Source of the DNA: Nitrososphaerota archaeon
GTDB lineage: Archaea > Thermoproteota > Nitrososphaeria_A > Caldarchaeales > JAVZCJ01
Reading direction: 5' to 3'
DNA: 53,778 nt
Assembly: GCA_038817485.1 (NCBI GenBank)
Contig: JAWAZL010000007.1
Span: 1-53,778, forward strand
Part shown: positions 37,476 to 51,245 of the stretch, one piece after another
How the letters are laid out: each line of letters begins with the position of its first letter
Numbering within the stretch: the first letter of the stretch is position 1
Position numbers and translations under genes: made by a program
The notes under the pieces: model-generated
Databases searched by the model: none
Seen by the model: the letters and a program-made list of their open reading frames with translations, nothing else
What the model was told of the DNA's origin: nothing

Positions 37476-37563
37476 AAGAATATTATAAAATTAAATTAAG
37501 CAAAAATAATTAAAGAATAATTATAAATGTTAAAATAAAACTATATATTAATTTGTTAATTGT

Positions 37564-38754
37564 ATGACTAGATTCTTATTCGGTACTTCAGGATGGAGTT
37601 ATAAAGATTGGATTGGAATTTTATATGAGAATGATAATGAAAATAAACTTTTAAAATATAGTTCAATATTTGATACTGCAGAAATAGATTCTACTTTTTA
37701 TTCTTATCCTTCTGAAAGAGTTATTAAATATCTTAATAATTATACAAGAGAAGATTTTATTTTTACTGCAAAAATCCCTAAAATTATAACTCATAAAAAG
37801 AAATTGGATATAAATCAAGGTATTGAAGAAGATTTATTAAAATTTTGTGATTTAATGAAACCTCTCCAAAAATCTGAAAAATTAGGTTGCTTACTTTTTC
37901 AACTTCCTCCAAAAATTGATTTAAATTTAGATAAATTTGAAAAATTCCTTAAAATATTGCCTAAAGATTTTAGATATGCTATAGAATTTAGAAGTGAAAA
38001 ATGGCTGAAAGATGAAGTTTTTAAAATTCTAAGTGATTATAATATTGCTTATACTATTGTAGATGAACCTCTTTTACCTCCTATGGTAAAAATTACTACA
38101 GATTTTACTTATATTAGATGGCATGGTAGAGGAAAAAAACCATGGTATAATTATCATTATAAAGAAGAGGAATTGAAAGAATGGGTTCCAAAAATAAAAG
38201 ATTTGCAAGGAAAAGTTGAAAAAGTATATGGTTTCTTTAATAATCATTTTCATGGATATGCTGTTCATAATTGTTTACAAATGTTAGAAATGCTAAATGC
38301 TTCAACAAATAAACAAAAAGAATTAAAGGAAAAACTTGATAAATATTTAGAATTTAAAAAAGAAGAAATTTACGCGCCTAAAATAACTTCTTTTACTTCT
38401 GCTTTTTCTAAAGAAGATTTAGAAAAAATGAAATTTAATGAATTATTAGGAATATTAATAGATAAAGCTAGAATGAAAAAAATAAGTGAGATAGTGGATG
38501 AAGATGTTAAAATATTGCGTATGGAGAATGAAGCAATAGAAGCTTTAGTAAAAGAATATCATGTTAAAATAGATTTAAATAAAAAAGTTTTACTTCATGA
38601 TTGTGCTGATTGGAGTAGAGTTTCACAATCTAAAATGTTTTGTAAACATTTAGGGAAATTATTCCTTTTATTACCTAAAGAGAAAGCAGAAGAAATTTTA
38701 AGAAAAATAATATTTAATATAGGAGAATGGGAATTCAAGCCATACATTAAATAA
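37564..38754 (+). CDS. DUF72 (YecE-like) protein with SWIM-like C-terminal extension
   Basis: 396 residues. Residues 1-245 are the DUF72 TIM-barrel-like domain: FLFGTSGWSYKDWIG, EIDSTFYSYPS, FTAKIPKIITH, LLFQLPPKI, AIEFRSEKW and FTYIRWHGRGKKPWYNY, closing with YGFFNNHFHGYAVHNCLQM. Typical DUF72 proteins end there (about 240-260 residues). A further 140 residues follow, ending with VLLHDCADWSRVSQSKMFCKH, a C-x(n)-C-x-H arrangement like a SWIM zinc knuckle. DUF72 has no proven activity. The extension suggests nucleic-acid or protein binding; that part is inference. Confidence 0.8.
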   Translation: MTRFLFGTSGWSYKDWIGILYENDNENKLLKYSSIFDTAEIDSTFYSYPSERVIKYLNNYTREDFIFTAKIPKIITHKKKLDINQGIEEDLLKFCDLMKPLQKSEKLGCLLFQLPPKIDLNLDKFEKFLKILPKDFRYAIEFRSEKWLKDEVFKILSDYNIAYTIVDEPLLPPMVKITTDFTYIRWHGRGKKPWYNYHYKEEELKEWVPKIKDLQGKVEKVYGFFNNHFHGYAVHNCLQMLEMLNASTNKQKELKEKLDKYLEFKKEEIYAPKITSFTSAFSKEDLEKMKFNELLGILIDKARMKKISEIVDEDVKILRMENEAIEALVKEYHVKIDLNKKVLLHDCADWSRVSQSKMFCKHLGKLFLLLPKEKAEEILRKIIFNIGEWEFKPYIK

Positions 38755-38758
38755 AAAA

Positions 38759-40657
38759 TTATTCCATTTCTATTCCAATTTTTTCAAATTGTTCTATTAC
38801 ATTTTCTAAATTTAATTCTTTTAATTTTTCTTTTAAAGGAATACCTGTTTTTTTACTCCATTTCCTTTCTTCATAATATTCATTTAACATTTTTTCAAGT
38901 TCAAATATTGATCCTTTAGATATTCCACTTGGAATAGGTTCTTCTAAAAATCTTTTAGGTAAAGTATCATGCTCTTTTCTAATTCCTTCTCTAATAAGAA
39001 ATGCCCTTTCAATATTTATTATTCTTTCTCCTATTTTTCTAACATCATTTCCATTTAATTTTAAACCAGTGGCTGCTTCTATAACTTCTGCAGCTTTATC
39101 AAAAGGCAGTATTTCCATATTTTCAGCTACATTTTTACATACTTCAAGAGAATCTACAATTGCACACCAATCTTCACAATAACTTACAAGTTTCCCTTTA
39201 CCTTTATATTCTAATCTTATTGTTGCTTCAGGAATTCCAAAAAGTTTTTCTCCCTTCTTTGGATCATCACTTAATTCCATGAATGGTTCTGATCTAAGAT
39301 GATCTGCTCCTCTACTTGCTACAACATATCCTAATCCATAACCTTTTGCTCCTCTTGGATCTGCTTGTATAATTTCTAAACCTTTAACATGCATAGCTAT
39401 TTCTTTTCCTATTCCAAGTTTTTCCGCAGCTTTTTTTACTCCATCTGCTAAAATATCTCCAAATCCTTCTCTTTTACTAATTTTTTCTATAAGTTTTAAA
39501 ATAGCTTCTTCATTTCCCCATGTTAAATCTAATCCATCCACATCATTTTTCTTAAGCCATCCTTTTTCATAACATTCCATTGCCCATGAAATACATTCTG
39601 CTGTTGTTATTGCATCTAAACCAAGTTTATTTACCATATCTATTGCTTTTAAAGCAACTTGTAAATCTCCATTTCCTACACGTGCAGTAAAAGAACTTAA
39701 AGGTTCATACTCTGGCCCTTCACCATATAAACCAGCATATTTACCTTCTTTTATAATATAGAATCTACTACATGGAAGTATGCATGAAAAACATCCTCTA
39801 ACTTTAATATTATACTCTTCTGCAAGTTTTTCTCCACTTACATTTTCTGCATATTCAAAAATAGTTGAAGTAAAATGCCTAGTTGGAAGGAAGCCCATTG
39901 CATTTACTGGAAGAAGAATTCTAGTAGTACCCATTTTTCTCCTTGGCCAATATTGTGGATGATTATAGATTTCTTCTTCTATTTCTTCAATAATTTTTTC
40001 AAATTTTTTAGGATTTGCTACTTCAATAGATTTACTTCCTTTTATAGCTATAGCTTTTAAATTTTTAGAAGCCATTACAGTACCCATTCCAGTTCTAGCA
40101 GCAGCTCTTATTAAATTTGCAAATATTCCAGCAAATTTAACTCCATTTTCAGCAGCAGGACCTATAATAACTGTTTGAATACTTTTATCTCCAAGGTCTT
40201 TTTTTATAATTCTATCACATTCATAAACATCTTTTCCCCATAAATGTTTTGCATCTAAAAATTCTATACTATCATCATTTATGTATAAATATATTGGCTC
40301 TTTGCTTCTTCCTTCTAAAATGATTTGATCATATCCAGCATATTTCATTTCAGCTGCAAAATGTCCACCTGCATTCGAATCTCCTAAAATATTTGTTTGA
40401 GGAGATTTTGCACTTACATTAAATCTAGAAGCTGTAGGAAACATTGTTCCAACAAGTGGACCAGTAGAAAAAATTAATTTATTCTCAGGACTTAAAGGAT
40501 CAATTTTTGGAGGAATTTCATCAAATAATCTTTTAGAATTAAAACCTCTACCACCTAAGAAATTTACCATTAAATCTTTTTCTAAATTTTTTATTGAAAA
40601 ATCTCTTTTTGTTAAATTTATTCTAAGAATTTTTCCTGCATATCCATAATATTTCAT
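38759..40657 (-). CDS. Aldehyde:ferredoxin oxidoreductase family, tungsten/molybdenum enzyme
   Basis: 632-residue AOR-family enzyme oxidising aldehydes to acids with ferredoxin, using a bis-pterin tungsten centre and one [4Fe-4S] cluster. N-terminal GYAGKILRINLTKRDFSI and LGGRGFNSKRLFDE, then FSTGPLVGT and NAGGHFAAEMKYAGYDQIILEG, are the AOR N-domain. The cluster cysteines are in CFSCILPCSRF and, far downstream, YCEDWCAIVDSLEVCKN. ARTGMGTVMASKNLKAIA and DPRGAKGYGLGYVVASRGADH contact the cofactor. It follows the ferredoxin gene by two bases, so the two form one unit. The aldehyde (amino-acid-derived or other) is not predictable. Confidence 0.93.
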   Translation of the reverse strand: MKYYGYAGKILRINLTKRDFSIKNLEKDLMVNFLGGRGFNSKRLFDEIPPKIDPLSPENKLIFSTGPLVGTMFPTASRFNVSAKSPQTNILGDSNAGGHFAAEMKYAGYDQIILEGRSKEPIYLYINDDSIEFLDAKHLWGKDVYECDRIIKKDLGDKSIQTVIIGPAAENGVKFAGIFANLIRAAARTGMGTVMASKNLKAIAIKGSKSIEVANPKKFEKIIEEIEEEIYNHPQYWPRRKMGTTRILLPVNAMGFLPTRHFTSTIFEYAENVSGEKLAEEYNIKVRGCFSCILPCSRFYIIKEGKYAGLYGEGPEYEPLSSFTARVGNGDLQVALKAIDMVNKLGLDAITTAECISWAMECYEKGWLKKNDVDGLDLTWGNEEAILKLIEKISKREGFGDILADGVKKAAEKLGIGKEIAMHVKGLEIIQADPRGAKGYGLGYVVASRGADHLRSEPFMELSDDPKKGEKLFGIPEATIRLEYKGKGKLVSYCEDWCAIVDSLEVCKNVAENMEILPFDKAAEVIEAATGLKLNGNDVRKIGERIINIERAFLIREGIRKEHDTLPKRFLEEPIPSGISKGSIFELEKMLNEYYEERKWSKKTGIPLKEKLKELNLENVIEQFEKIGIEME

Positions 40658-40659
40658 TT

Positions 40660-41154
40660 TTAATCACTTTTAATCTTTATTCCATGTTTATTAAGAAAAT
40701 CTTGATAAACAATTCTTGAATATTCATAATTTTTCTTTTGAATAAATTCATTAGGTTCTAAAAAAACAATTGCTTTTGTAGGACATTTTTTAACACATTG
40801 TGGATCTCCATTACATAAATTGCATACAATTGGAATTTTTTTCTCTATATGAAGGAAAACTGCTCCAAAAAAGCATGATTCAATACATTTATAGCATTTT
40901 ATACATTTTTCAATATTTATTTCCATAAAACCTTTTTCATTTCTATAAAAAGCATTTGTTGGGCAAATATTTATACATGGACAATATGAGCATAAACTAC
41001 ATAAAATTGGATTATCTATTCCATATTCATCTTCTTTAAAAATTCTTATTCTTGATAATTTTGGATTAAATTTTCCTTCATGATAAAAAGAGCATGAAAG
41101 TTCACAATATTTGCAACCAGCACATTTGAACGCATCAATAAATATTTTTTTCAT
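40660..41154 (-). CDS. Polyferredoxin, electron-transfer partner of the aldehyde oxidoreductase
   Basis: 164-residue iron-sulphur protein with four cysteine groups: CAGCKYCELSC, CSLCSYCPCINICP, CIKCYKCIESC and CNLCNGDPQCVKKCP, each able to hold a [4Fe-4S] cluster. The layout resembles the B subunits of molybdopterin enzymes. A C-terminal helix without cysteines probably docks to the partner. ATG at 41152-41154. It is first in the two-gene AOR unit and faces away from the importer operon. Confidence 0.9.
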   Translation of the reverse strand: MKKIFIDAFKCAGCKYCELSCSFYHEGKFNPKLSRIRIFKEDEYGIDNPILCSLCSYCPCINICPTNAFYRNEKGFMEINIEKCIKCYKCIESCFFGAVFLHIEKKIPIVCNLCNGDPQCVKKCPTKAIVFLEPNEFIQKKNYEYSRIVYQDFLNKHGIKIKSD

Positions 41155-41235
41155 TAAAAACCACTTTATTTATTCATTATAAATTTCTTAATATTATTAA
41201 AAATTATCATTATTCTAAAATTAGAAAAACGAAAG

Positions 41236-41474
41236 TTTTAAATACTTTTCTTTTCATTCCTAAAAAATAGTTTAGAGGTGAAATATTTGGGGGATTTAGT
41301 TTGGACAAGCATTAAAACAATATAACTTCTATAACATTAATTATTCCAATAATTTATTCCCCCAAATAAGATTTATTCAGAAAATATTGCTAGGACTTTT
41401 ATCTATAGAATATAGAAGAAACAATCCATTTAGAGCTACCCCTCTAAACTTATTATTTTTTGGAGGTGGGAAAA
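41236..41474 (+). promoter_or_regulatory. Structured leader RNA of the importer operon (candidate riboswitch) with its promoter
   Basis: TTTTAAATAC (41236-41245) is a TATA box, which places the start of transcription near 41265-41270. AGTTTAGAGG (41269-41278) pairs with CCTCTAAACT (41441-41450), closing stem P1. Inside, TATTTGGGGGA (41284-41294) pairs perfectly with TCCCCCAAATA (41358-41368), stem P2, with TTGGA/TCCAA (41301-41305/41345-41349) further in. TCTATA/TATAGA (41402-41407/41411-41416) makes hairpin P3. P1 thus encloses a three-way junction. The CCCCTC of P1's 3' strand can alternatively pair with GAGG of the ribosome binding site (41463-41466). No open frame longer than 12 codons lies in the leader. 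Confidence 0.6.
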
Positions 41475-42713
41475 ATGTTTTCTAAAAAAGAAAATATAAA
41501 AATATTAGCAATTGCTTTGATTTTCTTTATACTAGGAATTCTAATAGGATATTATGCTATTTTACAGCAAACTACATATTTTTTACCTAAGGAAATTGGA
41601 GAAATAAAGATAGGTGTAATGCTTCCATTAAGTGGCGAACTTGGACCTATTGGAAGTAAAATGCTTAATGGAGCAATATTAGCAGCTAAAATAATAAATG
41701 ATACAGGAGGAATAAATGGAAAATTCATTAAAATAGTTGCAGAAGATACTTTAGCTCTTCCAGAAAAAGCAATAGAAGCAGCTAAAAAGCTTATAGAAAT
41801 AGAAGGAGTAAAAGTAATAATTGGTCCTGCAACAAGTACTGAAGTATTAGCTATTTCAAAATATGTTAATGATAGAGAAGTAGTATTAATTTCAATGTCT
41901 GCTACAGCTGCAAAAATAAGTGAACTTGGAAATGATTATGTATTTAGAGTTATTGCAAGTGATGCTATGCAAACTAAAGCAATAGCAAGTATAATAGAAA
42001 AGAAAGGATATAAGAGGATTGTAACATTTGTTGTTGCAAATGATTATGGCATAGGTCTTGAAGAAGGATTGAAAAAATTGCTTGGAGAAAGAATTGCTTT
42101 AAGCATTAGATATGATCCAGCAAAAGGAGATTATAGAACAGAATTAATGCAAGTAGCTTCAATTAATCCTGAAGCAATTTTCTATGCTTTATGGGTTGAG
42201 AGTGGGAAAATTGTTTTCAAACAAGCTCTTGATATGGGTTTAGAAAATATACCTACACTTGGAGGTGAAGGAATGGCTGATGTAGCTTTCTTTGAAGATG
42301 AAAAAGCTGCTGAATATATTTTAAAAACTGGTTTAATGGGAACTAAACCTTCTTCTCCTAAAGGAACACTTGGATACAGTATATTCTATGAAGAATATAA
42401 GAAATACTTTAAAGAAGAACCTAGTTTATTCTGCGATTATACTTATGATGCTACAATGCTTGCAGCATTATCTATTGCTAAAGCAAGTTCTTATAATGGA
42501 TATGAAATCAAGAAAGCTTTAGAAGTTGTATCAAAATATTACGTAGGTGCTACTGGACATAAAGCATTTGATGAAAATGGAGATGTAATTCTTGTAGACT
42601 ATGAAATATGGAAAGTTTCTAAGATTGATGGAAAATATTCTTTTGATACAATTGGTTCATGGAATATTGTACAAGGATTAATAATGAAGGAAGGGATAGG
42701 TGAAGAATCTTAA
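41475..42713 (+). CDS. Branched-chain amino acid/amide ABC transporter, substrate-binding protein
   Basis: 412-residue extracytoplasmic receptor of the HAAT (LivJ/LivK, UrtA) family. Residues 7-30 form an N-terminal membrane anchor (ILAIALIFFILGILIGYYAIL) without a lipoprotein cysteine. The mature domain starts IGVMLPLSGELGPIGSKMLNGAILAAK, a clear type I periplasmic-binding fold, with VIGPATSTEVLAISKYVN and FCDYTYDATMLAALSIAKA. I chose the ATG at 41475 with GGAGGTGG before it; a TTG at 41460 would lie ahead of that site. It is first in a five-gene operon. The ligand could be a branched-chain amino acid, amide or related compound. Confidence 0.92.
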   Translation: MFSKKENIKILAIALIFFILGILIGYYAILQQTTYFLPKEIGEIKIGVMLPLSGELGPIGSKMLNGAILAAKIINDTGGINGKFIKIVAEDTLALPEKAIEAAKKLIEIEGVKVIIGPATSTEVLAISKYVNDREVVLISMSATAAKISELGNDYVFRVIASDAMQTKAIASIIEKKGYKRIVTFVVANDYGIGLEEGLKKLLGERIALSIRYDPAKGDYRTELMQVASINPEAIFYALWVESGKIVFKQALDMGLENIPTLGGEGMADVAFFEDEKAAEYILKTGLMGTKPSSPKGTLGYSIFYEEYKKYFKEEPSLFCDYTYDATMLAALSIAKASSYNGYEIKKALEVVSKYYVGATGHKAFDENGDVILVDYEIWKVSKIDGKYSFDTIGSWNIVQGLIMKEGIGEES

Positions 42714-43607
42714 ATGGATATAGCATCGATAAACTTCCTACAAATTTTTTTTAATGGATTAATAACTGGAAGTATATACTTTTTAGCTGCTTTAGGGCTT
42801 TCTTTAACATATAGCTTGCTTAATTTCCCAAATATTTCACATGCAGAATTTCTTGCATTTGGAGCATATGCTGCATATTTTTCTCTTGAATTAATTGGAA
42901 ATAATTTTCTTCTAGCAATCATAATAGCTTTTATTTTAACAGGATTGCTTGGAATATTTTCATATTTGATTGTTTTTAAACCCTTATCTAAAAGAGGAAG
43001 TACTTCAATGCATCTTGCAATTGCTTCTTTAGGATATGGCTTATTCCTTAGATACTCAATGTATCAAGTTTATGGAAGAGAATCATTAACATATAAAATA
43101 TGGTTTAATGCTTTTAATATAGGTCCATTACGTGTAACATCTTTATGGATTTTAACAATAGTAACATCTTTAATCCTTGTATTTTCATTACATTTATTTT
43201 TAAAGAAAACATTAATTGGAAAAGCAATGAGAGCTTTATCAAATAATCAAATTTTAGCAATGGTTTGTGGAATAGATAAAGAGAAAATTCTATTGCTAGT
43301 ATGGTTTATTGGAGCTGGATTAGCAGGAATTGGAGGAGTTTTTAAAGCTGGAGATACTAGAATAACTCCTATTCTTGGATGGGATTTAATGATTCCAATT
43401 TTTGCAGTAGTTATTTTAGGTGGGATAAAAAATCTATATGCTATAATAGCTTCAGCTTATATTATAGGTTTAATAGAAAATTTTTCAATAATATTATTGA
43501 CAATGTTAAATTTATCAACTGAATATAAAGTAATAATAGCTTTTATAATCTTAATAGCTATACTCCTTTTTAAGCCATATGGATTACTTACAAAGAAAAG
43601 TGATTAA
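42714..43607 (+). CDS. HAAT ABC transporter permease, LivH type
   Basis: 297-residue inner-membrane permease with about eight spans. FNGLITGSIYFLAALGLSLTYSLLNFPNISHAEFLAFGAYAA is the family's start, here split by a short loop. The cytoplasmic coupling region GKAMRALSNNQILAMVCGID and IGAGLAGIGGVFKAG follow. It begins immediately after the substrate-binding gene stop and is coupled to the LivM-type gene, which starts two bases after its stop. Confidence 0.93.
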   Translation: MDIASINFLQIFFNGLITGSIYFLAALGLSLTYSLLNFPNISHAEFLAFGAYAAYFSLELIGNNFLLAIIIAFILTGLLGIFSYLIVFKPLSKRGSTSMHLAIASLGYGLFLRYSMYQVYGRESLTYKIWFNAFNIGPLRVTSLWILTIVTSLILVFSLHLFLKKTLIGKAMRALSNNQILAMVCGIDKEKILLLVWFIGAGLAGIGGVFKAGDTRITPILGWDLMIPIFAVVILGGIKNLYAIIASAYIIGLIENFSIILLTMLNLSTEYKVIIAFIILIAILLFKPYGLLTKKSD

Positions 43608-43608
43608 T

Positions 43609-44499
43609 ATGATAGCATTCCTTTTAGATACTTTTATATGGATTGCTTTATATTCTATTTTAGCTCTTAGCTTAAGTATCGAGTATGGTTTTACTGGAAT
43701 AGTCAATTTTGGTAAAGCATTATTTTTCATGATTGGAGCATATGTTTCAGCCATTGTAACATTGAATGGATTTAATTATTTTATAGGATTATTATTTGCT
43801 ATTTTATTTTCAGCTTTAATAGGTTTAATATCTTCTATTCCAATGATTAAAGTTAAAGAAGATTATTTTGCTATTATAACATTAGCTTTAAGCGAATGTA
43901 TTAGAATAATATTAAAAAATGAATATTGGATTGCTGGAGGACCAATAGGTTTAAAAAATATTCCATCAGCTTTTCCATTAAAAAATTTAAGCTATGAAAT
44001 ATTCTTGATCTTAAATCTATTCTTAGTAATTGGAATATTGCTATTTTTTTATTTAATTTTAAGAATTATAATAAATTCACCCTATGGACGTATATTGAAA
44101 GCAATAAGAGAAGATGAAATATTAACTCAAATTCTTGGTAAAAATACTTTCAAGTATAAAGCTCAAGCATTCATTATAGGTTCTGCTATGGCAGGAGCTG
44201 CTGGTAGCTTTTTATCACAATATGTTGGATATGTAAGCACAGATTTATTTTTATCAACTACAACTTTCACTATATGGATAATGTGTATCATAGGTGGGCC
44301 ATCAAATATTAATGGAGCTATAATTGGAGCTTTTATTATGAAAGGAATTGAGAGAGGAACGAGAATATTGAAAGATTATACAAATATACCAATCGATCCG
44401 AATAATTTTATGTTTATAATAACAGGTATTTTAATGGTTCTATTCATTATGTATAAACCTGAGGGTATATTAAAAGAGAAAAGAATGAAGGTTGAATAA
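43609..44499 (+). CDS. HAAT ABC transporter permease, LivM type
   Basis: 296-residue second permease. IALYSILALSLSIEYGFTGIVNFGKALFFMIGAYVSAI matches the LivM start, and SPYGRILKAIREDEILTQILGKN is the coupling helix. GSAMAGAAGSFLSQYVGYVSTD and IMCIIGGPSNINGAIIGAF are also typical. I chose the ATG at 43609, preceded by GTGA; an in-frame upstream start would overlap livH by 29 bases with no conserved residues. Confidence 0.92.
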   Translation: MIAFLLDTFIWIALYSILALSLSIEYGFTGIVNFGKALFFMIGAYVSAIVTLNGFNYFIGLLFAILFSALIGLISSIPMIKVKEDYFAIITLALSECIRIILKNEYWIAGGPIGLKNIPSAFPLKNLSYEIFLILNLFLVIGILLFFYLILRIIINSPYGRILKAIREDEILTQILGKNTFKYKAQAFIIGSAMAGAAGSFLSQYVGYVSTDLFLSTTTFTIWIMCIIGGPSNINGAIIGAFIMKGIERGTRILKDYTNIPIDPNNFMFIITGILMVLFIMYKPEGILKEKRMKVE

Positions 44500-44501
44500 T
44501 A

Positions 44502-45263
44502 ATGAAAGATATATTAATTTTAGAAAATGTGCATAAAAGCTTTAATGGATTAAAAGTAGTAAAAAATGTATCTCTTAAAATTAAAGAAAAAACAATTACT
44601 GGTTTAATAGGACCAAATGGAAGTGGAAAAACAACTTTATTCAATCTTATTTCAGGAATTTATAAAATTGATAATGGAAAAATTTTCTTTAATGGAGAAA
44701 GGATAGATAATTTAAAACCGTATGAAATATCTAATAAAGGGATTATTAAAAGCTTTCAAATTCCACGTATTTTTAAAAGATTAACTATACTTGAAAATAT
44801 GTTAATAGCTGCTGAAAATATTAAAGGAGAAAAAATATTAAATGCTTTTAATAAAAATAATTGGATTAAGATAGAAGAAGAAAATATAAAGAAAGCATTG
44901 AATATACTTGAATTTTTAGAATTAAAAGAATTAAAGAATTCTTTACCAACGAAAATTTCTGGAGGACAATTAAAACTTCTTGAAATTGGAAGAGCTTTAA
45001 TGTGTAATCCTAGAATGCTTTTATTAGATGAATTAGTTGCAGGTATAAATCCATTATTAGCTGAAAAAATATTTAGAAAAATAATCGATTTAAGAAATAT
45101 GTTTAATATTACTTTCTTTATAATAGAACATAGAATAGAATTTTTATTCGATTTTGCTGAATACATTTTTGTTATGGATAAAGGAGAAATAATTGCTGAA
45201 GGTACTCCTAAAGAAATAATAAATAATGAAAGAGTATTAGAAGCATATTTAGGAGAAAAATAG
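44502..45263 (+). CDS. HAAT ABC transporter ATPase, LivG type
   Basis: 253-residue ATPase of the importer. Walker A is GPNGSGKTTLF, the signature is ISGGQLKLLEIGRAL, Walker B is MLLLDELVAGINPLLAEKI, and the switch histidine is in FFIIEHRIEFL. Asn/Glu in DELVAG fits LivG enzymes. The start lies two bases after the permease stop. It pairs with the LivF-type ATPase next. Confidence 0.95.
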   Translation: MKDILILENVHKSFNGLKVVKNVSLKIKEKTITGLIGPNGSGKTTLFNLISGIYKIDNGKIFFNGERIDNLKPYEISNKGIIKSFQIPRIFKRLTILENMLIAAENIKGEKILNAFNKNNWIKIEEENIKKALNILEFLELKELKNSLPTKISGGQLKLLEIGRALMCNPRMLLLDELVAGINPLLAEKIFRKIIDLRNMFNITFFIIEHRIEFLFDFAEYIFVMDKGEIIAEGTPKEIINNERVLEAYLGEK

Positions 45264-45272
45264 GTGTTTTTA

Positions 45273-46004
45273 ATGGAAATACTAAAAACAATAAATGTTT
45301 CAGCAGGATATGAAGAAATAATAGTAATAGAAAATATTTCAATAAATGTTTGTAAAGGAGAAATAGTATTTCTTCTTGGACCAAATGGAGCAGGGAAAAC
45401 TACATTAATAAAAAGCATTGTTGGAATAGCTAAAATATTTAATGGAGAAATTTTCTTTAATGGAAAAAATATAACAAATATTAGTTTAAATAAAATTATA
45501 AAAGAAGGGATTGGTTATGTGCCTCAATTGGATAATGTATTCACAGATTTAACAGTAAAGGAAAATTTAGAAATTGGAGCATATATTTTAAAAGATAGAA
45601 AAAAATTTGAAGATTTATTGAATAATGTATTTAATATTTTTCCAGAATTAAGCAATTTAAGAAACAAGAAAGTAGAAACATTAAGTGGAGGAGAAAGACA
45701 AATGCTTGCACTTGCAAGAGCAATGATTATCGAGCCAAAATTATTAATATTGGATGAACCTACAGCTAATTTAGCTCCAAAAATTTTAAAAGATTTTTAT
45801 AAAAAAATAACTGAATTGAATGAAAAGTATAATATTTCTTTTCTTATAGTTGAACAAAATGTAAGGAAAGCTTTAGAAATAGCTTCAAGAATATACGTAT
45901 TGGTTTCTGGAAAATGTGTACTTGAAGCAGAAAAAGGAGAAATAAAAGAAGAAAATATAAAGGAAGTATTCTTAAGAAGAAATATAAATTATTCTTCTAA
46001 ATAG
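45273..46004 (+). CDS. HAAT ABC transporter ATPase, LivF type
   Basis: 243-residue second ATPase. Walker A is GPNGAGKTTLI, the signature is LSGGERQMLALARAM, Walker B is LLILDEPTANLAPKI, and the switch is in FLIVEQNVRKAL (LivF has Gln rather than His there, as seen). I chose ATG 45273 with AGGTG at the LivG stop; a GTG nine bases earlier sits within that site. It ends the operon and overlaps the convergent TIGR04076-like gene by 16 bases. Confidence 0.94.
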   Translation: MEILKTINVSAGYEEIIVIENISINVCKGEIVFLLGPNGAGKTTLIKSIVGIAKIFNGEIFFNGKNITNISLNKIIKEGIGYVPQLDNVFTDLTVKENLEIGAYILKDRKKFEDLLNNVFNIFPELSNLRNKKVETLSGGERQMLALARAMIIEPKLLILDEPTANLAPKILKDFYKKITELNEKYNISFLIVEQNVRKALEIASRIYVLVSGKCVLEAEKGEIKEENIKEVFLRRNINYSSK

Positions 46005-46261
46005 GATATTTCCCATATGACTCTTCCATTAGGGTCAGGGCACTCAACAAGGTTTGTTCTTGGAAGCCAATCTTCAGGTTCAACTATATTCCTTTGTTTA
46101 GCTGGTAATAAAGGTAAAAGGCTTGATAAAGCATATATGCATACATGCTTATTCTTTTCTGGAATTATAAGCTTGCCTCCATCTAATATAAAATAATCTC
46201 CTATTTTCATTATATCGCATTTCCCTTTAATTTCTTTTACTTTAACAATTAATTTCCTCAT
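45989..46261 (-). CDS. TIGR04076-like small protein
   Basis: 90 residues. The pattern is MRKLIVKVKEIKGKC at the front, then IGDYFILDGGKLIIPE, CIYALSSLLPLLPAKQR and CPDPNGRVIWEISYLEE. The GD-F, C-ALSSLLPLL and CPDP-GRVxWE features match small proteins of the TIGR04076 family, whose role is unknown and which often occur near redox or transport genes in anaerobes. I chose ATG 46259-46261; a longer reading would add A+T-rich leader residues. No ribosome binding site is seen. Confidence 0.65.
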   Translation of the reverse strand: MRKLIVKVKEIKGKCDIMKIGDYFILDGGKLIIPEKNKHVCIYALSSLLPLLPAKQRNIVEPEDWLPRTNLVECPDPNGRVIWEISYLEE

Positions 46262-46416
46262 ATCAAATTCTATATTTTTTGAAAAATTTAAGTATAAAAA
46301 TTTTTTGTACATTTTAGAAAAAATAAAGTGTTTTAATTATTCTTTACTTTATATAAATTTTTATTTTTAAAATTTATAAACTCCTTTTTTTAAAAAATAA
46401 AAAAATTAGATAGAAA

Positions 46417-47625
46417 ATGAGAGCAATAAATTTCATAACTATTGCTCTCATTTTAATATTGCCTTTTACAATTTTTGGAAATGGATTATTAAAAAACCAT
46501 AATACAATAATTTTAAATGAAGAAAATGAAGAATTTGTTTTCCATTCTACATATAGCGGCTTAATTTTAGAAGCTGGAAGCAGTGTTACTATACCATTGA
46601 TTGTTACAAATAACATGAATGGAACTTTGAATATTGCTTTTTCAATAGCTTCAGGTCCAAACTGGGATGCAAAATTTAAATATAAAGGATATGTATTAAA
46701 AAGCATATACTTATTGCCTAAAGAAACAATATCTATAGATTTTAGCTTTACAGCACCAGCAAATGCATCTCAAGGAAATTATGAATATGTTTTATTAGCT
46801 TCTACAATTGATGGAAAAATAAAAAAGGAAATTAAAATTTCAATAGATTTAAAAGCTAAAGAAGTAGTTGCAACTAAAGCTGGTGAAGTAAAACTTTCAA
46901 CTTTATATCCTGTGCTTGAAGGAACAGCCGGATCAACTTTTCAATTTAGAGTTACATTAAGTTATGATGGAAGTGAAGAAAGGATATTCAATTTAGTAGC
47001 AAATGCCCCTCCTGGATGGATTACAGAAATTAGACCAGCATACGAATCAAAGAAAATATCAAGTATACAATTAAGTGGATATAGTAGTAGAGATTTGGAA
47101 ATAAGTGTTACTGCTCCTGAAATTACAAAAGAAGGGAATTATACAATAAGATTTTCTGCATATTCAGAAAATATTGGTAATTCTATAGATTTGAAAGTTG
47201 TAATAATTGGAACATATAAAATAAGCATGAAAACTTCAACTGGAAGATTGAATATTGGAACAATTGCTGGAGAAAAAAGCTATTTATCACTTATAATTAA
47301 AAATGAAGGAACAGCAAATATTAAAAGAGTAACTTTTTCATCTATTAAACCTGAAGCATGGAAAATAGTTTTTGATCCAGATGAAATAAGCAATTTAGCT
47401 CCTGGAGAAAGTAGAGAAATATCTGTAGAAGTAATTTCCCCAAGCAATACTATACCTGGAGATTATTCAATAACTTTAAGAGCAAATTATGAATATGGAA
47501 CAAAAGAATTAGATATTAGAGTAACAGTTTCATCTCCTCCATTATGGGGATGGATTGGAATAGGAATAGTATTTGCAATAATTGCAGGATTATTATTCAT
47601 TTTCTTTAAATTTGGAAGGAGATGA
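46417..47625 (+). CDS. NEW3-domain surface protein anchored in the membrane
   Basis: 402 residues. A signal peptide (NFITIALILILPFTIFG) is followed by three beta-sandwich units of the NEW3/COG1470 type, each with a proline-glycine turn (GPNWDAKFKYKG..., APPGWITEIRPAYE..., PEAWKIVFDPDE...). LAPGESREISVEVISPSNTIPGDY is the clearest one. A C-terminal span (WIGIGIVFAIIAGLLFIFF) and a basic tail FGRR hold it outside. It shares the operon with an ABC ATPase and permease, a pairing seen in several archaea, where the surface protein is thought to be the transporter's partner. Confidence 0.8.
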   Translation: MRAINFITIALILILPFTIFGNGLLKNHNTIILNEENEEFVFHSTYSGLILEAGSSVTIPLIVTNNMNGTLNIAFSIASGPNWDAKFKYKGYVLKSIYLLPKETISIDFSFTAPANASQGNYEYVLLASTIDGKIKKEIKISIDLKAKEVVATKAGEVKLSTLYPVLEGTAGSTFQFRVTLSYDGSEERIFNLVANAPPGWITEIRPAYESKKISSIQLSGYSSRDLEISVTAPEITKEGNYTIRFSAYSENIGNSIDLKVVIIGTYKISMKTSTGRLNIGTIAGEKSYLSLIIKNEGTANIKRVTFSSIKPEAWKIVFDPDEISNLAPGESREISVEVISPSNTIPGDYSITLRANYEYGTKELDIRVTVSSPPLWGWIGIGIVFAIIAGLLFIFFKFGRR

Positions 47626-47626
47626 A

Positions 47627-48556
47627 ATGGCAGCTATAGAAGCTATAAATCTTACAAAAAGATATGGAGAAATAACAGCAGTAGATAATTTAAATTTATT
47701 AATTGAAGAAGGAGAAATATTTGGTTTTCTTGGTCCTAATGGAAGTGGAAAAACAACTACAATATTAATGTTCATGGGCCTTACTGAACCTACTTCAGGA
47801 GAAGCAAAAGTATTTAATTTAAATCCTTTAAAAGATGCTTTAAAAATAAGAAGAATTGTAAGCTATCTTCCAGAAAATATTGGATTTTATGAAGATTTAA
47901 CTGCAAAACAAAATTTAGAATATGTTGCAAAATTGAATGGAATACCATCTAACATATATTCTAAAAGAATTAAAGAATTATTAGAGATTGTAGGATTATC
48001 TCAAGAAATGGATAGAAAAGTAGGAGAATATTCTCGAGGAATGAAGCAAAGATTAGGAATTGCTGAAGTATTATTAAAAGATCCTAAGCTTATTTTCTTA
48101 GATGAGCCTACTCTTGGTTTAGATCCTGAAGCAACTGAGCTTGTGCTAAATTTAATAGAGAAAATAAATAAAGAGAAAGGGATAACGATATTTTTATCTT
48201 CTCATTTGTTACATCAAGTTCAAAGGGTATGTAAAAGAGTTGGAATATTTGTTAAAGGAAAGCTATTAGCTGAAGGAACAATAGATAGGCTTGGAAAAGA
48301 AAGATTGAAGGAAGATTTTTTCACTATTGAAGTTAAAGTTCTTGAAAAAGGAGAAGAAGCTTTAGAAATTATAAAGAAAATTAATGAAGTAAAAAATATT
48401 GAAATGAAAGATGATTTATTAATAATTAAAGCAGAAAGTGATATTAGACCTAAAATTGCAAAAAGACTTATTGAAGAAAATTTCTCAATATTACATTTAA
48501 GATTAAGAGAATATACTCTTGATGAAATTTATAAGCAATATTTTGAGGTAAAATAA
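47627..48556 (+). CDS. ABC transporter ATPase (ABC-2 exporter type)
   Basis: 309 residues. Walker A GPNGSGKTTTILMFMGL, Q-loop in LPENIGFYEDLTAKQNLEY, signature YSRGMKQRLGIAEVLL, Walker B LIFLDEPTLGLDPEA, switch SSHLLHQV. A C-terminal regulatory part from about 225 is typical of ABC-2 ATPases. I chose the ATG at 47627 with GGAGATGA upstream. It starts one base past the stop of the surface protein, and the permease follows one base after its own stop. Confidence 0.94.
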   Translation: MAAIEAINLTKRYGEITAVDNLNLLIEEGEIFGFLGPNGSGKTTTILMFMGLTEPTSGEAKVFNLNPLKDALKIRRIVSYLPENIGFYEDLTAKQNLEYVAKLNGIPSNIYSKRIKELLEIVGLSQEMDRKVGEYSRGMKQRLGIAEVLLKDPKLIFLDEPTLGLDPEATELVLNLIEKINKEKGITIFLSSHLLHQVQRVCKRVGIFVKGKLLAEGTIDRLGKERLKEDFFTIEVKVLEKGEEALEIIKKINEVKNIEMKDDLLIIKAESDIRPKIAKRLIEENFSILHLRLREYTLDEIYKQYFEVK

Positions 48557-48557
48557 G

Positions 48558-49517
48558 ATGGTTGGTTTAATTACAGTTTGTATAAAAGAATTGAAAGACA
48601 ATTTTTTAAGTAAAAGGTTTATAATAGTTTTCCTTTTAATATATTTAGTAGGGATTTCAACAGCAACTCTTTCAATACAAGCAATTGCAAGTGCAGCATA
48701 TAGTTTATCTGCAGAATCTTTCTTATTTTTAAGAATATTTACTTCTACAACTGGATTACTTCCTGCTTTCATTTTCTTTGTAAGCTATTTTGGACCAATA
48801 ATAGGAATATTATTTGGATTTGATGCAATAAATTCTGAACTTTTAAGTGGAACATTAACAAAAGTTTTATCACAACCAATTCATAGAGATTCTTTCATAA
48901 ATGGAAAATTTTTAGCTGGATTGATTACAATTTCTATTATTTATGGAAGTATAACTGGAATTTTAATTGGAATTGGAATATATTATTTTGGTGGGCCTCC
49001 AACTTTAGATGAATTTTTAAGGATTTTATGCTTTATAGGATTGTGTATATTGTATACTGTTTTTTGGATGAATATTGGAATATTGTTTTCAATAATTTTT
49101 AAGAAGGTAGCTACATCTGCTTTAGCTTCAGTTGCTATATGGCTTTTCTTTACTTTTTTCATTTTCATGATTGCTAATTTTATTGTTAATATAGCTTTTC
49201 CAATTACTGATCCTTCGCTTTTATTTAATGAAGAATTTTTAGCAAAAAGACAAGAATTGCAACAAATGATATTGCAATTTTCTCCAGAGCAATTGTTTGA
49301 GATTGTTACAATAGTTATTCTTACACCAACGATTAGAACAATTTCTCCAATCATTGGAATAGAAACAAGTAGAATAATACCAAATCCATTACCAATAGAT
49401 CAAAGTATAATAATTGCATTGCCATATTTAATGATTTTAATAATAATGATTTTCATATGCTTTGCAATTTCTTATATTTTATTTATGAAACAAGAAATTA
49501 GGTCTGGAGCAATATAG
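48558..49517 (+). CDS. ABC-2 type permease
   Basis: 319-residue membrane protein with six or more spans and one large outside loop (about 215-260, LLFNEEFLAKRQELQQMILQF). ATP-coupling segment FDAINSELLSGTLTKVLSQPIHRDSFINGKFL (cut by a short gap) is the ABC-2 signature. It is the membrane half of the exporter with the ATPase just before it. Substrate unknown; a lipid, polysaccharide or peptide export role is possible. Confidence 0.88.
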   Translation: MVGLITVCIKELKDNFLSKRFIIVFLLIYLVGISTATLSIQAIASAAYSLSAESFLFLRIFTSTTGLLPAFIFFVSYFGPIIGILFGFDAINSELLSGTLTKVLSQPIHRDSFINGKFLAGLITISIIYGSITGILIGIGIYYFGGPPTLDEFLRILCFIGLCILYTVFWMNIGILFSIIFKKVATSALASVAIWLFFTFFIFMIANFIVNIAFPITDPSLLFNEEFLAKRQELQQMILQFSPEQLFEIVTIVILTPTIRTISPIIGIETSRIIPNPLPIDQSIIIALPYLMILIIMIFICFAISYILFMKQEIRSGAI

Positions 49518-49523
49518 AATTTT

Positions 49524-49970
49524 TTATTTTACATCATTTTTCATAATAGGAGTAACAATTATTTCTTTTAAATTTGTTTTTTTAATTTTTTCTTTTAATT
49601 TTAAATCCATAGTTAAAAAATTAGTTTTCATATTTAATGCTAAAGCTATATAAGCAGCATCATATATTGAAATATTGAATTTCATTGAAATTTCGAACGC
49701 TTTTTCATAAACTTCATCATATTTATGGATTATGCATAGTTCTTTTATAAATTTTTTTATACTTTCAAAAACAATTTTTGCTTCTTCTTCATTTATTTCT
49801 TTTAATACTAAAGCTTTTTTATAAATTACATTTAATAATTCATAAATAGTCAAATCTAATATATGACTTTCTTCATATGTTTCTATAATTTTCTTAGCCC
49901 AATCGCTATATTTTTCTGGTATATAAAGAGCTGAAATTATTGATGCATCTATTACAGCTTTAATGTTCAA
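49524..49970 (-). CDS. vapC: PIN-domain toxin VapC
   Basis: 148-residue PIN-fold ribonuclease. Acidic residues that bind metal are D8 in AVIDASI, E43 in TIYELLN, D118 in SIYDAAY and D137 in LTMDLKL. VapC toxins cut tRNA or rRNA when free of antitoxin. It overlaps vapB by 11 bases, the usual toxin-antitoxin order. The 3' end is six bases from the permease stop, convergent. Confidence 0.9.
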   Translation of the reverse strand: MNIKAVIDASIISALYIPEKYSDWAKKIIETYEESHILDLTIYELLNVIYKKALVLKEINEEEAKIVFESIKKFIKELCIIHKYDEVYEKAFEISMKFNISIYDAAYIALALNMKTNFLTMDLKLKEKIKKTNLKEIIVTPIMKNDVK

Positions 49971-51096: not shown

Positions 51097-51245
51097 TGGG
51101 AGCGGTGGGATTCGAACCCACGAACGCCGGGTATAGCGGCTTTTTTTCGCCAGCTCCAGTAATTCTTCATCCTTTTTGTCAGAATTTTTTTAATTTACAT
51201 TTATTACTGGAGCCCGGTGCCTTGACCTGGCTAGGCTACGCCCCC
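51097..51245 (-). tRNA. tRNA-Trp (CCA) with a 74-base intron
   Basis: Full cloverleaf on the minus strand: acceptor GGGGGCG/CGCTCCC, D-arm GCCTAGCCAGGTCAAGGC, anticodon stem CCGGG/CCCGG, T-arm GTGGGTTCGAATCCCAC, discriminator A at 51097; CCA is not encoded. The anticodon loop is C-T-CCA-G-A once bases 51133-51206 are removed, which places the intron at 37/38, the usual archaeal site. The intron has CTGA and ATGAAG like D' and C' boxes, and its ATTACTGGAG is exactly complementary to CTCCAG plus the first intron bases TAAT. A second small hairpin (AGCTGGC/GCCGCT) is near the 3' junction. TATA-like TTTTTATTTAA lies about 25 bases upstream. Confidence 0.93.

Follow-up and report, generated by a model that had tools for sequence, protein, structure and literature searches.

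The window analysed here (the whole stretch of 53,778 nucleotides of contig JAWAZL010000007.1 from a Nitrososphaerota archaeon) carries an operon for a HAAT/Liv-type ABC importer, and the leader that precedes the operon raises the question of which signal it reads, and by what means. The original prediction described this leader as a translational riboswitch folded into a closed three-way junction, with a strand competing with the importer ribosome binding site (RBS). The analysis below points to another kind of sensor: the importer leader probably detects a shortage of tryptophan through its translation, rather than as a metabolite-binding RNA, by means of a cassette that, judging from sequence comparison, was probably derived from a trpE start in the same archaeal phylum.

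Organisation and folding of the leader

The substrate-binding protein of the importer is encoded at 41475–42713 on the plus strand (Peripla_BP_6, 4e-44; Liv-type PDB matches) and is followed by two permeases and two ATPases (42714–46004, plus strand); behind the operon, a 107-aa ORF without a Pfam match lies on the minus strand (45989–46312). All leader features are on the plus strand. The sequence of the importer promoter contains a TATA box, TTTAAATA, at 41237–41244, and its position predicts a transcript start at about 41266–41270. The motif GAGGUGA at 41275–41281 is a perfect complement of the 16S 3′ tail GGATCACCTCCT and forms the RBS of a leader ORF at 41287–41325, which reads UUG GGG GAU UUA GUU UGG ACA AGC AUU AAA ACA AUA UAA (MGDLVWTSIKTI) in the zero frame and is kept in the congener as MGDLVWTSIKPI. 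The spacing between GAGGUG and the UUG at 41287 is 6 nt, identical to that between the importer RBS (GGAGGUGG, 41462–41469, also complementary to the 16S tail) and the importer AUG at 41475. The leader thus has a tryptophan codon and its own RBS, a feature of leader-peptide attenuators, with UUG as the start codon. GUU UGG at 41299–41304, with a Val codon for the P site and a Trp codon for the A site, is the proposed +1 shift site; the +1 frame runs from the UUU at 41300 through 61 open codons to the UAA at 41483–41485, a little beyond the importer AUG; the frame overlaps the importer start. A U-rich tract, UUAUUAUUUUUU (41450–41461), lies 5′ of the importer RBS and may be a termination site.

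The three predicted helices are all present in the sequence: a stem of 11 Watson–Crick pairs, five of them G-C (41284–41294/41358–41368), whose 5′ arm takes in the start codon of the leader as well as the cassette's G-rich block; a closing stem of 10 pairs (41269–41278/41441–41450), whose 5′ arm overlaps the leader-ORF RBS; and a 6-pair hairpin with a GAA loop (41402–41407/41411–41416). The duplication of GAGGTG in the closing-stem 5′ arm (41275–41280) and in the importer RBS (41463–41468) is equally real, and the competition of the two copies for one complementary strand proved more extensive than had been proposed, since UUUAGAGGUG (41271–41280) and UUUGGAGGUG (41459–41468) differ by one base. 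The strand CCTCTAAA (41441–41448) pairs with TTTAGAGG (41271–41278) or, with one G-U, with TTTGGAGG (41459–41466); the sequence and the ensemble folds alike allow 41441–41448 (CCUCUAAA), complementary to either RBS copy, to form an alternative, RBS-hiding pairing with UUUGGAGG at 41459–41466. Shuffled sequences contained an equally long complement of the 5′ arm in 12 of 5000 cases. With both copies of the RBS sequence competing for a single complementary strand, a switch in importer translation is plausible.

The statistics of the fold are less clear-cut. Two nested helices of at least 9 pairs occurred in 5 of 1000 shuffles, but also in 21 of 455 upstream regions of the window's genome, and the fold z-score of −2.8 for 41265–41455, without the importer RBS, was only −1.4 for the full leader, with the RBS. 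When the RBS and the coding start were included, the probability of the closing stem at 37 °C was 0.07 in the window's genome versus 0.94 in the congener; the importer RBS was paired with a probability of 0.84 in the window's genome, i.e., in full context the shared strand favours the RBS over the closing stem. Two competing states are therefore plausible, with a balance that is not conserved between the two species, and the single stable closed junction of the original prediction is not borne out, given the weak closing stem here and the deletion of the third helix in the congener. Ensemble folding also indicated a hairpin before the U tract (41429–41435/41442–41448), which forms once the 5′ end is blocked; a consensus scan of the leader found no intrinsic terminator.

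The leader cassette and the starts of trpE genes

In a DNA search of the order, 41284–41321 matched the beginning of trpE, the gene for anthranilate synthase I, of genome G030 with 85% identity across 39 nt. A pattern combining the RBS with MGDLVW, derived from the window and G030, gave seven matches in 398 genomes of the phylum and none in the reversed control; the seven are the window leader, the leader of the congener and five trpE starts. As the window and G030 had supplied the pattern, the independent evidence lies in the remaining four matches, every one of which is trpE. With a second pattern, describing the commoner MRx/MGx-type cassette, 33 matches were obtained, almost all of them at trpE, and the control gave 0. 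Other DNA matches of similar E-value (G001:C1:335276 and G000:C19) fall in coding sequence and were dismissed as chance. On these comparisons, the window cassette is very likely homologous to trpE starts, and the 5′ GAGGUGA, which the original prediction had taken for a competing strand, is better read as the RBS of a leader ORF homologous to a trpE start; with that assignment, the sensor would be the ribosome translating the tryptophan codon.

In the trpE genes that match the MGDLVW pattern, the zero frame ends within a few codons and TrpE resumes in the +1 frame from UUU GGN. In a survey of 80 trpE gene starts, 68, distributed over 18 family-level groups, combined a start codon and NUU UGG with a +1 reading frame for TrpE. 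The Trp codon is codon 6 in 46 of the 68 cassettes and otherwise codon 4, 7 or 8; the P-site codon before TGG is CTT (32), GTT (21), ATT (11) or TTT (4), and GTT in the window. The A-site codon is UGG, not UGA, in all 68 cassettes and in the window, and CTT TAG occurs only in G268b. The +1 Phe codon is TTT in 68 of 68 cases and never TTC, while the trpE bodies contain 399 TTT and 466 TTC; under codon bias alone, TTT at every shift site would have a probability of about 1e-23. A G-rich purine block precedes the shift site, with G invariant at −8, and the window has GGGGGA at the same place; Shine–Dalgarno (SD) matches of at least 4 nt upstream of the site were found in 72% of cases versus 51% of shuffles, the window's GGGGGA lacking a 4-nt match. 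C follows the A-site codon in 40 of the 68 cassettes. Of 39 trpE genes, 36 gave a positive result in the test for this layout; among neighbouring ORFs the figure was 8 of 122, and among the long ORFs of G000 and G001 it was 5 of 647.

A start codon (ATG, GTG or TTG) in the trpE frame is lacking in 23 of the 68 genes, lies solely behind the shift site in 17 and stands before it in 28; in these 28 genes frameshifting is not obligatory, because a possible in-frame start, such as GTG, is available upstream of the site. All 12 trpE genes without a shift site possess an in-frame start codon. The zero-frame ORFs of the cassettes vary freely between 5 and 51 codons, which disfavours a simple stop–restart mechanism, and sequencing error is excluded by the recurrence of the +1 layout in many independent genomes. 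Given this pattern, the use of RF2-type +1 frameshifting by the trpE genes, with the tryptophan codon in the A site, appears likely; that the shift depends on tryptophan seems reasonably probable, and, with slightly more reserve, +1 frameshifting at a hungry tryptophan codon may be taken to control most trpE genes of the phylum and the trpE-derived importer leader.

Several individual trpE starts depart from the common layout. In G259 (L188), CTT GAC replaces NTT TGG and the leader start and trpE are in one frame, a natural loss of the shift site; of the two trpE copies in G268 (L129, L144), one begins in frame in the ordinary way, with MSDLPST..., and the other, MGDPL, has CTT TAG. The second cassette of G320 (L251, C8:179910), where the zero frame reads into TrpE-like residues and soon ends, was set aside as a truncated, frame-fused trpE pseudogene; a second match in G219 and the matches in G127 and G218 are followed by no open +1 frame and look like chance.

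Comparison with the congener and the predicted need for tryptophan

The leader was compared between two species, that of the window's genome and its only available congener, G001. The importer block (37480–49530) is 96% identical between them and its 4-fold sites are 6% divergent, while sampled genome blocks average 90% identity and 14% divergence at 4-fold sites; perhaps the high identity of the block reflects recent exchange or stronger constraint. In the intergenic stretch 41155–41265, which separates the importer from the divergent ferredoxin/aldehyde ferredoxin oxidoreductase pair, just one of 111 nt is substituted, much less than the neutral rate would give.

Within the leader, substitutions are distributed very unevenly. 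Both 41266–41283 and 41441–41480 are free of substitutions, and the core between them (41284–41440) has 21 substitutions in 142 nt, together with a 15-nt deletion in G001, which makes it the most divergent 150 nt of the 12-kb importer block. Inside this core, 41287–41315 is identical in the congener (p ~0.008 at the rate of the core); the leader RBS, the start codon, the sensor codons and the zero-frame stop are all the same in both species, against a divergence of 15% in the flanking core. The deletion eliminates the third helix, the 6-pair hairpin (41402–41416) being partly removed, and the 3′ arm of the 11-pair stem (41358–41368) shows one compensatory and one broken pair in the congener. 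In this two-species comparison neither the fold energy (p 0.14), nor the consensus energy (p 0.18), nor the number of variable pairs kept (p 0.68) exceeded random placement of substitutions, so no selection for keeping the RNA structure is visible here.

The leader of the window shares with the trpE cassettes the RBS, the start codon, the G-rich block, the tryptophan codon at position 6, the GUU before UGG and the early zero-frame stop. Its +1 frame is open in 1.6–2% of shuffles, and neither the 19 substitutions of the congener (chance of staying open under them 0.41) nor its deletion, whose length is divisible by three, closes it. Codon changes in this frame comprise 14 nonsynonymous and 2 synonymous, i.e., its residues are unconstrained, and a search for a TrpE N-terminus in the +1 peptide gave no significant match (hmmsearch E 0.03–0.2). 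The pattern suggests a frame kept for the passage of ribosomes and not for its peptide, the statistics by themselves being modest. Two other origins were considered for the leader and rejected: as a protein-coding relic read straight through, it has no Pfam match and its spliced frames have no homologues, and a repeat or mobile element is disfavoured by its being single-copy in the genome.

Pfam searches of G000 and G001, in both of which all controls were positive, found neither trpE nor any other chorismate-binding enzyme, and no trpA; by gene content, both should therefore need to import tryptophan. Tryptophan, or a compound related to it, may be what the importer carries; its binding protein is similar to Liv/HAAT proteins, and the importer family gave no hint of tryptophan as a ligand.

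Proposed switch, rival readings and known systems

These features can be combined, with cautious preference, into a model in which the leader would be a tryptophan-sensing recoding leader serving an ABC importer of the amino-acid type, in a lineage without trpE. Comparison supports the homology of the cassette to trpE, the +1 layout of trpE, the absence of trpE and trpA and the open +1 frame in both species; the frameshift, its dependence on tryptophan and its coupling to the importer are steps that we infer. Ribosomes would load at GAGGUGA (41275–41281), initiate at the UUG at 41287 and arrive at GUU UGG, codons 5 and 6. With ample charged tRNA-Trp, the UGG would be read and the ribosome would terminate at the UAA ending at 41325; the importer RBS would then stay paired in the 41441–41448/41459–41466 hairpin, and the untranslated U tract (41450–41461) may also permit transcription termination, aCPSF1 being known to act at U tracts (PMC8716108). 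With scarce tryptophan, the ribosome would pause at UGG and the P-site tRNA would slip +1 from GUU to UUU; the ensuing 61 codons of +1 translation would pass through the RBS hairpin and terminate just past the importer AUG, opening the importer RBS or coupling importer translation to that of the leader, so that the importer would be on. The helices may tune initiation of the leader, because the 11-pair stem extends over both the start codon of the leader and the G-rich block.

The observations bear differently on other readings of the locus. Of the riboswitch proposal, a cis-regulatory leader with competing strands around the RBS stands, and the helices exist; the ligand-binding part does not. 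A metabolite-binding riboswitch built on a three-way junction is very improbable, since its third helix is deleted in the sole congener, its putative aptamer core is the fast-diverging segment described above, and the covariation in the two-sequence comparison of the window with G001 is not beyond chance, as was equally the case for the energies; no conserved, covarying aptamer emerges. Scans of the leader against Rfam 15, both at the gathering thresholds and at E ≤ 10, found no riboswitch or other known RNA family, and no similar leader was found on the 55%-identical importers of the same order (G013, G007). Still harder to credit is a chance fold in an AU-rich leader combined with a chance leader ORF: nested helices of such size do occur upstream of genes in the window's genome, which speaks for the former, but the cassette matches trpE starts and nothing else in 398 genomes.

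Two readings accept the trpE-like cassette and dispute what it does. Classical ribosome-mediated attenuation without recoding, in which a stall at the UGG at 41302 would block the 11-pair stem and re-partition the RBS and anti-RBS strands, the +1 frame being incidental, has a leader ORF, a tryptophan codon and competing RNA strands to build on and belongs to a mechanism well known in bacteria (PMC10272879); it is nevertheless unlikely, as there is just one Trp codon, the RNA structure is conserved no better than chance, and it leaves unexplained why the same cassette in trpE runs straight into a +1 coding frame. Somewhat less probable again is a functionless relic, i.e., a trpE that was lost and whose promoter and first codons remain before the importer. 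The missing trpE in G000 and G001, the rapid evolution of the core, with its substitutions and deletion, and the preponderance of nonsynonymous changes in the +1 frame would all fit such decay; the unchanged RBS, start, sensor codons and zero-frame stop amid the diverging core, the deletion of a length divisible by three and the persistence of an open +1 frame in both species speak against it.

A recoding leader that reads tryptophan supply, the reading preferred here, has parallels in several known systems. Leader RNAs are a classical means of amino-acid sensing in bacteria, with very little of the kind known from archaea, and +1 frameshifting is already employed as a sensor by RF2 and antizyme. 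The bacterial RF2 gene, prfB (features for comparison from PMC5009743), resembles the archaeal cassettes in its short zero-frame ORF, its shift site (NUU U; CUU U in RF2), its slow A-site codon, the G-rich stretch just upstream, the C favoured after the A-site codon and, as regards trpE, the main product in the +1 frame, whereas the +1 frame of the window ends at the importer start. In RF2 the A-site codon is the stop UGA, sensing the release factor, but the archaeal cassette has the sense codon UGG, and the quantity sensed would therefore be charged tRNA-Trp; the window differs further in that its +1 frame is a leader ORF overlapping the regulated gene, and in its archaeal host. The trpL and ilvB-II uORF attenuators are alike in having a short leader ORF that reports amino-acid supply upstream of biosynthesis or transport genes, but the archaeal cassette has one regulatory codon at a fixed early position, and, unlike the RNA terminator switch of the trpL type, trpE would be read by leaving the frame. 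Hungry-codon frameshifting likewise involves a slip at a codon whose aminoacyl-tRNA is scarce but is known as an error process; a 2016 review of recoding stated that there were no known examples in which it makes starvation-specific products (PMC5009743). In archaea, a 2014 transcriptome paper reported no direct experimental support for attenuator or riboswitch regulation in vivo (PMC4247193), and according to a 2021 paper the fluoride riboswitch was the sole natural riboswitch experimentally determined (PMC8241225). The archaeal riboswitches (fluoride crcB and the putative preQ1) share with the present locus a long structured 5′ leader, but the importer leader has neither an aptamer match nor a conserved junction, and its sensor would be a codon.

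If the model is true, the cassette would be a sense-codon counterpart of the RF2 switch, reading charged tRNA-Trp directly, and, within the open-access literature, the first known regulatory use of amino-acid-starvation frameshifting; the question lends itself to direct testing, given that trpE of 18 family-level groups has a cassette of about 20 nt. For annotation, it would mean that trpE starts in these genomes are probably misplaced, or that the genes look startless. A separate annotation detail concerns the minus strand of the window at 51097–51245, where ARAGORN with default settings missed a tRNA that Rfam detects with 52.8 bits; with 149 nt versus the 71 positions of the model, this tRNA apparently contains an intron.
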